Source of the DNA: Prolixibacteraceae bacterium
GTDB lineage: Bacteria; Bacteroidota; Bacteroidia; Bacteroidales; Prolixibacteraceae
NCBI GenBank assembly: GCA_018648265.1
Contig: JABGRN010000020.1
Span: forward strand, 1-64,000
Reading direction: 5' to 3'
Length of the DNA stretch: 64,000 bases
Made by a program: the position numbers and the translations under genes. How positions within the stretch are numbered: the first letter of the stretch is position 1; the number at the start of each line of letters is the position of its first letter. This document shows positions 155-13,170 of this stretch, piece by piece. The notes under the pieces were generated by a model. It was not told where the DNA came from. It was given only the letters and a program-made list of their open reading frames with translations, and did not search any database.

Positions 155-162
155 TATCTTTG
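155..162 (+). promoter_or_regulatory. Bacteroidota-type -7 promoter element (TATCTTTG)
   Basis: TATCTTTG fits the Bacteroidota -7 consensus TAnnTTTG. It lies 31 bases before the ATG of the leader ORF at 194 and would drive the leader ORF and dapB. A clear TTTG at -33 is not seen, so the call rests on the -7 match and its position. Confidence 0.45.
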
Positions 163-193: not shown

Positions 194-271
194 ATGAAAC
201 GAGCATGGCAAATATTGGCACACAAGAGGATGATTATTAAGCGAGTTCCATGTGTTGCCATTAAAAACTAA
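194..271 (+). CDS. Conserved 25-aa leader ORF upstream of dapB (copy 1)
   Basis: A short ORF starts MKRAWQILAHKRM and ends RVPCVAIKN, stopping 13 bases before the dapB ATG. The same block, about 97 bp long, recurs at 11595-11692 before the TolC-like gene, with an ORF MKRVWQILAHWRM...RVPCVAVKNKQV. Over the 25 shared codons seven differ: two silently (CAC/CAT, CGA/CGG) and three as A/V, I/L and I/V, which looks like protein-level constraint. The peptide is basic with a hydrophobic stretch. It could be a regulatory leader peptide, a small protein, or the edge of a dispersed repeat. No function is recognised. Confidence 0.5.
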   Translation: MKRAWQILAHKRMIIKRVPCVAIKN

Positions 272-284
272 TAATTATAAACAC

Positions 285-1001
285 ATGAAAATAGCATTAA
301 TTGGTTACGGGAAAATGGGTAAGGAAATTGAGAAAATTGCGATTTCCCGTGGACACGAAATTAATTTGCTTATTGACATAAATAATCCCGGGGATTTAAC
401 AATTGAAAACTTACAAAAATGTGATGTAGCCGTTGAATTTACAATTCCCGGTTCGGCAGTAAATAATTATTTCACCTGTTTCGAAGCTGGGATTCCGGTG
501 GTAAGCGGTACAACTGGCTGGCTTGATAAAAAAGAAGAGGTTTATAAAAAATGCACTGAAACAAACGGGACATTCTTCTATGGAAGCAATTTTTCGATTG
601 GCGTAAACTTGTTTTTCGAAGTAAATAAAAAGCTGGCCCAACTGATGGCCGCCCGCAACGAATACAGTGCAGAAATGCTCGAAGTCCACCACACACAAAA
701 ACTGGATGCTCCGAGCGGAACAGCAATTAGCCTGGCCGAAGGTATTATTAAAAACCTTCCACAAAAAAACAGTTGGGTAAACAATAAAATACCTAAGGAA
801 AGTGAGCTGAATATTAAATCGGAACGTTTGGGCGAGGTTCCAGGTATCCACACAGTAAAGTACGAATCGGAAGTTGATTTCCTTGAAATTACACACAGTG
901 CAAAAAGCAGAAAAGGATTTGCATTTGGTGCAGTTCTGGCAGCAGAATATTGCCAGAAAAACACAGGGATATTAAGTATGAAAAATTTATTGAACATTTA
1001 A
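285..1001 (+). CDS. dapB: 4-hydroxy-tetrahydrodipicolinate reductase
   Basis: DapB reduces 4-hydroxy-tetrahydrodipicolinate with NAD(P)H in the lysine/diaminopimelate pathway in the cytoplasm. The 238-residue protein has the N-terminal nucleotide-binding loop GYGKMG (7-12), SGTTGW (74-79), and the catalytic segment EVHHTQKLDAPSGTA with the His pair at 135-136, Lys139 and the DAPSGTA substrate loop at 141-147. The length is slightly short but usual for Bacteroidota. An in-frame GTG at 252 would add 11 residues, but that extension overlaps the leader ORF and the family starts at MKIALIGYG, so ATG 285 is chosen. lepB follows after 14 bp, suggesting co-transcription. Confidence 0.95.
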   Translation: MKIALIGYGKMGKEIEKIAISRGHEINLLIDINNPGDLTIENLQKCDVAVEFTIPGSAVNNYFTCFEAGIPVVSGTTGWLDKKEEVYKKCTETNGTFFYGSNFSIGVNLFFEVNKKLAQLMAARNEYSAEMLEVHHTQKLDAPSGTAISLAEGIIKNLPQKNSWVNNKIPKESELNIKSERLGEVPGIHTVKYESEVDFLEITHSAKSRKGFAFGAVLAAEYCQKNTGILSMKNLLNI

Positions 1002-11594: not shown

Positions 11595-11681
11595 ATGAAA
11601 CGAGTATGGCAAATATTGGCACATTGGAGGATGATTCTTCTGCGGGTTCCATGTGTTGCCGTTAAAAACAAACAAGTATAA
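11595..11681 (+). CDS. Conserved 28-aa ORF upstream of TolC-like gene (copy 2)
   Basis: This ORF begins MKRVWQILAHWRMILL and ends RVPCVAVKNKQV, the second copy of the sequence at 194-271. It starts 14 bases after the permease stop and ends 4 bases before the TolC-like ATG, so it sits inside the exporter operon. The similarity continues through the stop region into TATAAACACATGAAAAT at both downstream start codons. Its conserved place directly before a start codon argues for a translational or leader role. No known family is recognised. Confidence 0.5.
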   Translation: MKRVWQILAHWRMILLRVPCVAVKNKQV

Positions 11682-11685
11682 ACAC

Positions 11686-13170
11686 ATGAAAATTAAATAT
11701 ATACTACTCTGGCTTTTTGTTCTACCGACAGTCTTTTCTTCGGCACAGGATGAAAAATTACTTACACTCGACAATGTTATTGACATTGCCTCGCAACAAT
11801 CGTTAGATGCGTTCATCAATCAAAACATGTACTTGTCGAGTTACTGGGAGTACCGTTATTTTAGGGCCGACCGTTTACCAAGTTTGAGTATCGAAGCTAC
11901 TCCGTTCGATTACAACCGTTCGATGCAGAAAGTTTATAATTACGATGAAAACAGGGATGAATATAAATCGCGCGAAGATTTAGGTTCTGAAATTGGATTA
12001 CTGTTAAACCAAAATGTAGGTTTAACAGGTGGCCGCATTTTTGCCCGCTCCGAATTAAACTTAACACAAAAACTGGGCTTGGATAAAATATCATCCTACA
12101 ATTCAACACCTTTTAGTGTTGGTTATGCACAAACAATAAATGGTTACAACAGGCTAAAATGGACAGCCAAAATTGAACCCATAAAATTCGAACGGGCTAA
12201 AAAAGATTTTATTCAGTCGAAAGAAGAATTGGCAATAAAAGCTACCCGCCGGTTTTTCGACTTAGTTGATGCACAAATTGAAGTAAACATTGCAAATACA
12301 AATATGGCAAACGCCGACACCCTTTATAAAATTGGGAAAGGGCGGTTTCAGGTAGGAACAGTTACACAAGATGAGTTGTTAAACCTGGAACTTAGTTTTA
12401 TGAATGCAACACTTGCACTTACACGTGCAAACCTTGGACTGGAACGTTCCCGTGCCGATTTAAATTCTTTTTTAAGTTTTGATAAAGAAACTAAAGTCGA
12501 GTGTATTGTCCCAACTAATTTACCCGATTTACAAATTGAAGCCGACAAAGCAATACAGGCGGCTTTGCAAAATAATCCCGAAATATTGCAACAACAACAG
12601 CGACTTATAGAAGAAGACAGCAAGGTTAAACAAGCAAAATCGGAAAGCGGGGTTAGTGGAGATGTTTATGCTTTATACGGGTTAAACCAAAATGCCGAAT
12701 CGATAGATCTGGTTTATCAAGATCCACTCGACAGGCAGCGTTTAAGATTAGGCGTAAACATTCCGGTACTCGACTGGGGACGTAGAAAAGGGAGGCTGGC
12801 AATGGCTGAATCGAGCCGAGAGGTTGTTCGCATTAGTGTAAACCAGGAACGAATTGACTTTGAACAAAATATTATTATGAACGTAATGGAGTTTAATTTA
12901 CAAGCCGATCAGGTTTTAAACACGGCAAAAGCAGACACCATTGCACAAATGGGGTACGATGTTACACAACAACGATTTTTAATTGGCAAAGTAGATGTTA
13001 CTAAATTAAACCTCGCAAGGAATGATCAGGAAAGGGCACGCCGTGCTTACATAGCTGCTTTACGTTCGTACTGGAATTACTATTTTACTATTCGCCAACT
13101 TACGCTTTACGATTTCGAAAACACAAATACCTTATCGCAAGATTTTGAACGTCTTATCAATAATAATTAA
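11686..13170 (+). CDS. TolC-like outer membrane efflux protein
   Basis: This is a 494-residue protein with a signal peptide (MKIKYILLWLFVLPTVFSSA) and two outer-membrane-efflux-protein repeats rich in long helices, for example AIKATRRFFDLVDAQIEVNIA and the later IGKVDVTKLNLARNDQERARRAY. It should form the trimeric outer-membrane channel of the exporter encoded by its neighbours. An in-frame GTG at 11653 is possible, but that stretch belongs to the repeated leader block, and the signal peptide starts cleanly at 11686. The second adaptor follows after 9 bases. Confidence 0.87.
   Translation: MKIKYILLWLFVLPTVFSSAQDEKLLTLDNVIDIASQQSLDAFINQNMYLSSYWEYRYFRADRLPSLSIEATPFDYNRSMQKVYNYDENRDEYKSREDLGSEIGLLLNQNVGLTGGRIFARSELNLTQKLGLDKISSYNSTPFSVGYAQTINGYNRLKWTAKIEPIKFERAKKDFIQSKEELAIKATRRFFDLVDAQIEVNIANTNMANADTLYKIGKGRFQVGTVTQDELLNLELSFMNATLALTRANLGLERSRADLNSFLSFDKETKVECIVPTNLPDLQIEADKAIQAALQNNPEILQQQQRLIEEDSKVKQAKSESGVSGDVYALYGLNQNAESIDLVYQDPLDRQRLRLGVNIPVLDWGRRKGRLAMAESSREVVRISVNQERIDFEQNIIMNVMEFNLQADQVLNTAKADTIAQMGYDVTQQRFLIGKVDVTKLNLARNDQERARRAYIAALRSYWNYYFTIRQLTLYDFENTNTLSQDFERLINNN

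Follow-up and report, generated by a model that had tools for sequence, protein, structure and literature searches.

We analyzed a window of 64,000 nucleotides (the whole stretch, positions 1 to 64,000 of the forward strand of contig JABGRN010000020.1, assembly GCA_018648265.1) from a Prolixibacteraceae bacterium, in which a block at 194-293 recurs, in unchanged orientation and equally far from the following ATG, at 11595-11694. The block is very probably a non-autonomous mini-element of the IS110 type of insertion sequence (IS) that is aimed at start codons. It is regarded as mobile because the corresponding sites of dapB and of a gene for a TolC-like protein are empty in related genomes and because copies are found before unrelated genes. 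The mini-element is about 91-100 bp in size and contains no gene, encoding no DEDD transposase. The recurrence 11 kb away, with the same spacing to ATG, had already been described in an earlier sequence-only reading of this DNA and holds: both copies match the covariance model of the family (E = 3.1e-18 for copy 1 and 1.5e-15 for copy 2), and a model search with filters off placed the next-best site in the window only at E = 0.32, leaving two clear copies.

Copy 1 (194..284, plus strand, 91 bp) directly precedes dapB (285..1001, plus strand; Pfam domains DapB_N and DapB_C). The sequence-only reading had recognized a real element but extended it to 301, which falls within dapB; in fact it stops at the start codon of dapB (285-287). 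With ATGAAA on either side, the edge can be placed anywhere inside this motif. We located dapB in 31 of the 34 relatives searched and fetched 30 with the start; the block was present at the dapB start in none of these 30 orthologues, and a model search of their loci returned a single weak match (L164), about 1.2 kb off and on the opposite strand. In several empty orthologues, TATCTTTG and a short leader run straight into ATGAAAATTGC. In the window, the corresponding TATCTTTG (155..162, plus strand), which we take to be akin to the Bacteroidota -7 promoter consensus TAnnTTTG, and leader stretch run into ATGAAACGAGC, and dapB begins as ATGAAAATAGC 91 bp on. By this comparison, the left ATGAAA (194..199, plus strand) is the insertion core and probably holds the original dapB start codon. 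Copy 2 (11595..11685, plus strand) precedes the gene for the TolC-like outer membrane efflux protein (11686..13170, plus strand; Pfam OEP in two stretches), for which 15 of 19 orthologues are empty and four (L265, L266, L267, and L271) have a copy at that very start codon. The filled sites in L266 and L267 resemble each other and possibly go back to one shared insertion. Tandem copies (L011 and L021) have one ATGAAA in common.

Judging from these sequence comparisons, the mini-element evidently inserts precisely at ATGAAA, mostly at the start codons of genes. To its left remain an ATG and the upstream region; its right end gives an AT-rich stretch and a new ATGAA. The right end is followed by ATGA in 97 of 103 aligned copies, with A as the next base in 96 of these 97 and as the following one in 91. 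No specificity is seen in the two bases to the left of the mini-element. Frame statistics were computed for the 99 copies whose right end carries ATG or GTG, and the near-identical copies from two genomes, G017 and G027, were counted in the frame, structure-alignment, and flank tallies. Frames of at least 80 aa are opened by 69 of the 99 right-end start codons, compared to 162 of 722 control ATGAA sites taken from these loci on the same strand. The downstream reading frame remains complete because the right end supplies the new ATGAA. The downstream gene identities that were checked (dapB, the efflux gene, and seven others) are unrelated: DapB, outer membrane efflux protein, pyruvate kinase, carbon-nitrogen hydrolase, PepSY, Rnf-Nqr subunit, response regulator, alcohol dehydrogenase, and S41 peptidase. 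The sequence-only reading had rightly called the two downstream genes of the window unrelated (DapB versus OEP domains). Given that dapB and pyruvate kinase are usually needed genes, translation from the re-created ATG presumably works. In four copies (L012, L092, L282, and L283), the left start codon is TTG or GTG and the right one ATG, as would fit the left codon being the original one; L035 and L087 show the reverse pattern, so that this observation is only suggestive.

The family is large. The window's own 5.58-Mb genome yielded 35 places by BLAST (E<=0.001) and 48 covariance-model matches (E<=0.01); within the genus, 36 of 37 genomes (this one among them) contain at least one match, and 28 of the 36 others contain at least 10. 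Farther away, other genera of the same order gave matches in 4 of 24 genomes, and a phylum-wide draw gave them in 15 of 296 (E<=0.001, own included), from 9 of 140 genera; the latter is a lower bound given that the model is tuned to the window's genus and the filters were strict. The one-contig genome G008 carries 65 copies, and in G017, 14 of the 20 copies fetched share 95-100% identity with the reference copy L101, yet stand before unrelated sequences. The covariance-model search of Bacteroidota genomes proposed in the sequence-only reading found many copies, before unrelated genes, and the chance local duplication without homologs that it had named as the refuting case is contradicted by the genome-wide copies. 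An origin from a plasmid or phage was rejected as well, copy 1 being without a blastn match (E<=0.001) in plasmid and phage collections.

The left ~45 bp and the last ~17 bp of the mini-element clearly resemble, at the sequence level, the ends of a Bacteroidota IS110 clade that inserts at ATGAAA. In two loci (L075 and L099), a mini-element copy is directly followed by an IS110 inserted at its ATGAA. The proteins of the adjoining and associated IS110s contain the DEDD_Tnp_IS110 and Transposase_20 domains. The IS110 left ends, ATGAAACATCCATGAC..GACACACAGGGGGATGATTAT, resemble ATGAAACGAGCATGGC..GGCACACAGGAGGATGATTAT of the mini-element, and a hidden Markov model of the mini-element left ends gave E<0.01 matches in 21 of the 75 IS110 upstream regions searched, compared to 0 of 75 letter-shuffled ones. 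Right ends reading ..AATTATAAACAN, with ATGA directly after the boundary, occur in many mini-elements and many IS110s, and a common IS110 left end, ATGAAACATCC, is present in some distant mini-elements. A scan of one-genome-per-species assemblies gave 164 IS110 relatives, and among the best 80 of these, 12 loci had model matches (E<=0.1). One of these (L182) is the IS110's own left end and not a mini-element; in 11 of the 80 (L181, L184, L187, L189, L190, L191, L192, L194, L216, L218, and L245), a mini-element abuts the IS110. The IS110 locus of G019 is identical to contig WGCT01000087 of a Draconibacterium metagenome-assembled genome.

Some further features of these ends and transposases were observed. 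A second left-end type, ATGAARCCAWCATGGCA..TTTGGCACACARG, occurs at 1534-1580 of L034 and, in L075 (from 1592), is the left end of an IS110. In L170 (near 2376-2390) and L171 (near 915-930), the transposase changes frame at an A run (AGKKK), as if frameshifting joined the two halves; in the IS110 relative of G014, the transposase is read through in one frame, without such a change.

The associated IS110s carry guide sequences of their own. A conserved stretch 3' of the transposase gene, with two NN-ATGAAA segments, was detected in 49 of 83 loci. Guide 2 equals the last two right-end bases of its own element in 28 of 28 distinct elements, and for guide 1, identity with the two bases that precede the insertion core holds in 27 of 36. 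Swapped comparisons gave 7/28 and 4/31, the level of shuffles. Element ends were placed by an automatic rule that ignores the tested bases. This placement replaced an earlier hand-read table of 29 rows (24/24 for guide 2 and 22/26 for guide 1), which left out the near-copies L170, L177, L185, L186, and L192, along with L241, L249, L220, L230, and unplaceable rows, and in which the right ends of L180, L183, L184, and L190 were substituted for a wrong automatic pick. L220 and L230 have a mismatch at guide 1, and because the automatic placement retains rows omitted by hand, the count for guide 1 falls to 27/36. The guides of the ATGAAA clade agree with the bridge-RNA/seekRNA logic, and the position of the guide region downstream of the gene is that reported for the IS1111 group, as both are set out in PMC11208160 and PMC11187229.

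In G014, the IS110 relative is present in six copies. The three that were read (L297, L302, and L306) have AAAAAA as the core at either end and also in the two guides, and they are inserted at A-tracts, with a right flank that by eye looks like a terminator stem. This relative appears to represent a natural change of target class.

A typical mini-element contains an internal stretch, such as GCGAGTTCCATGTGTT, that is antisense to AACAC-ATGA-AACGAGC except for tandem G.A and one base. In copy 1 (all features on the plus strand), this segment, GCGAGTTCCATGTGTT, occupies 241..256 and, by sequence and covariation, is the near-antisense of the element's own joined ends: the left-end arm AACGAGC (198..204) can pair with 241-247 as helix H1, with two G.A mismatches, and the right end AACAC together with the re-created ATG (280..287) can pair with 249-256 as helix H2. 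In the sequence of copy 2, likewise on the plus strand, the internal segment GCGGGTTCCATGTGTT lies at 11642..11657, and the right end AACAC with the re-created ATG (11686-11688) at 11681..11688. Covariation is strong for the right end (H2) and weaker for the left end. On average, 3.54 of 5 positions of the right end are paired with the internal segment, compared to 2.52 after shuffling, a value reached in 0 of 10000 shuffles; this test used 28 distinct combinations from the 91 of 103 copies with a readable anchor, about nine of which were evidently misplaced but kept. Alignment counts also contained the right-end covariation, one of the alignments being itself fitted to the structure. The right-end types include AACAC, ATCAT, AACAG, ATAAG, ATAGT, ATCAC, ATCGT, and ATTAG, along with ATGAG and AACGA, for which the pairing is of the tandem G.A kind. 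For H1, 4.86 of 8 positions are paired versus 4.43 after shuffling (maximum 4.81; 0 of 5000 as high), across 43 distinct combinations from 108 of 134 copies. Six copies have a compensatory GC-to-CG change in H1, an extra base pair is present in AATCGAGC/GCGAGATT, and the pairing is perfect in AACATCCA/TGGATGTT. At the position that would complete the pairing, opposite the fourth core base (248 in copy 1), the 89 readable copies have C 55 times, A 33 times, G once, and T never.

Several variants of the internal region were noticed. In L031, L036, L017, and L013, the stretch before GCGAG could pair with the bases that precede the right ATG (as TTATTAAAAT does with ATTTTAATAA in L031), an alternative that excludes H2; it was seen by eye, uncounted, in several copies and, again by eye, is absent from the AACAC subtype. 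Palindromes resembling CCGTCAGCTGACGG are found in the mini-elements L010, L011, L014, L016, L024, L028, and L030, and a longer insert, ACTTGTC.. after ACACA, in the G027 copies L133-L139; both spread with the mini-element.

In the mechanism that we propose, an IS110 DEDD transposase encoded elsewhere would move the mini-element in trans, through a circular form in which the right end, ATGAAA, and the left end are joined. The internal segment, complementary to both ends, would serve end recognition, either as a guide RNA or within a folded strand. After insertion, the downstream gene would still be translated, from a transcript with a leader longer by ~90 nt, and a leader hairpin could cover the start codon. 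The proposed role of the internal segment and all statements on movement, expression, and translation are deduced from sequence. A further, tentative possibility, which we consider rather unlikely, is that the mini-element is a free-standing guide, that is, an RNA of ~95 nt, antisense to the joined ends and core, that borrows an IS110 transposase. If so, one segment (TTnCAT and its flanks) would recognize the left end, the right end, and the ATGAAA target, and each insertion would add a start-codon hairpin, so that dozens of genes per genome would acquire a common leader, which could become a means of translational control.

Several observations weigh against mobilization by an IS110 transposase with the aid of the internal segment. 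The window's assembly yielded no member of the ATGAAA clade of IS110s; the sole IS110 that it contains belongs to another type. Relatives of the clade transposase with over 50% identity were detected in only 3 of the 37 genus genomes (G019, G029, and G014), and the G014 relative uses the core AAAAAA, so that an ATGAAA-type helper is present in two of the 37 (G019 and G029); three more genus genomes, the own one included, have transposase matches at 33-38% identity. Neither G017, with its recent burst, nor the one-contig G008, with its 65 copies, contained a helper. Draft assemblies lose repeated ISs, which could explain a missing helper, but this explanation does not cover G008. IS110s prefer certain bases left of ATGAAA, and the mini-elements show no such preference. 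Covariation in H1 is modest, and the folding energy is unremarkable in three of four copies (z = -0.35, -0.53, -1.39, and -3.53), which makes it weak as proof of a stable RNA. Finally, a subfamily in which a palindrome replaces the right-end complement multiplied as well (L010, L011, L014, L016, and L030), so the internal segment is perhaps unnecessary.

The absence of a local helper lends some weight to another enzyme moving the same element, such as a Y1 transposase of the IS200/IS605-like or RAYT kind, for which a folded single strand would be the substrate. Y1 transposase genes are present in the own genome (L039 and L040), where the ATGAAA-type IS110 was not found, and the hairpins and internal guide pairing of the element resemble the logic of Y1 transposases, which likewise involves hairpins and internal guide pairing. 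However, the 3.2-3.3 kb loci around five Y1 matches contain no copy of the element, both element ends are IS110-like, and mini-elements form head-to-tail arrays with IS110s; we rejected this candidate as improbable. Within the same genome, matches to the Y1 transposase-like PF01797 also lie in frames of ~1200 aa (L041-L043), the one in L041 being inside an Eco57I-type restriction-modification protein, between the methylase and TaqI_C domains.

Somewhat less probable still is a conserved cis-regulatory RNA, in which the start-codon hairpin would be kept for translation control and spread by ordinary duplication. H2 does pair the start codon with the internal segment and covaries, but none of the 30 dapB orthologues carries the block, the filled sites vary between species, 30 of the 99 right ends open no frame of 80 aa, and copies adjoin IS110s. 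Furthermore, an Rfam scan of 17 loci gave no match at E<=1 that overlies a copy, which removes a known Rfam RNA family from consideration; in these 17 copy loci and seven IS110 loci, only matches below the gathering score were recorded, all outside the elements.

Least credible, to the point of being negligible, is a reading of the block as a peptide gene, either a translated leader controlling the gene behind it or a small mobile gene whose peptide is under selection. A frame of 25-28 codons, with mostly conservative changes, is real in both window copies, and the left frame reaches at least 22 codons in 40 of the 99 copies, but it ends by codon 5 in 39 (e.g., ATG AAA CGA GCA TGA), and the left and right start codons stand in all three relative frames (42, 31, and 26 copies). 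Conservation is strongest at the element ends and the paired arms and tracks the base pairing of the ends with the internal segment. The peptide is thereby refuted as a property of the family, and the selection on it suggested by the sequence-only reading finds no support. Among the three options offered there, a repeat that captured start sites came close to right with the direction reversed: it is the mobile element that would go to start sites and re-create them, not the repeat that captures them.

Compared with known systems, the mini-element, read as IS110-type, is closest to IS110/IS1111. With respect to these ISs as described in PMC11208160 and PMC11187229, the likeness extends to the DEDD_Tnp_IS110 and Transposase_20 domains of the associated transposases and to noncoding-end guides of the associated IS110s that match the target and donor end, as in bridge RNA/seekRNA. 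Precise insertion with a short core at both ends, seen in the mini-element and the empty sites of dapB and the TolC-like gene, is a further likeness. Unlike IS110/IS1111, the mini-element has no transposase; the associated IS110s are set apart by the core ATGAAA and the guide region 3' of the gene. Bridge RNA has split guides for opposite strands, whereas the mini-element has one contiguous antisense stretch, no systematic search for a second guide having been made. In PMC11187229, a laboratory mini-IS, consisting of the left and right ends without the transposase gene, is moved in trans by an IS1111/IS110 transposase and seekRNA; that construct was built, whereas the mini-element, which has its own internal segment, looks like an equivalent arisen in nature. 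Like miniature inverted-repeat transposable elements, the mini-element is short, many-copy, and gene-free and has ends in common with an autonomous IS, but no ordinary terminal inverted repeats were seen in it; it is bounded by ATGAAA, has an internal segment complementary to its ends, and rebuilds the start codon. HEARO/IscB RNAs also insert next to ATGA, but the Rfam scan of the 17 loci gave no HEARO match. Among the openly accessible papers searched, titles and abstract openings mention no miniature or start-codon-targeting IS110 element.

If this reading is correct, a transposon lineage with a start-codon guide core, ATGAAA, is able to invade genes, dapB and pyruvate kinase among them, with the frame unbroken. 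The family would show RNA-guided IS110 elements naturally tuned to a functional site and would include natural donors of ~100 bp. The change of the core to AAAAAA in a relative bears on the reprogramming of bridge-RNA systems, and insertion at start codons may bear on the rewiring of bacterial leaders.
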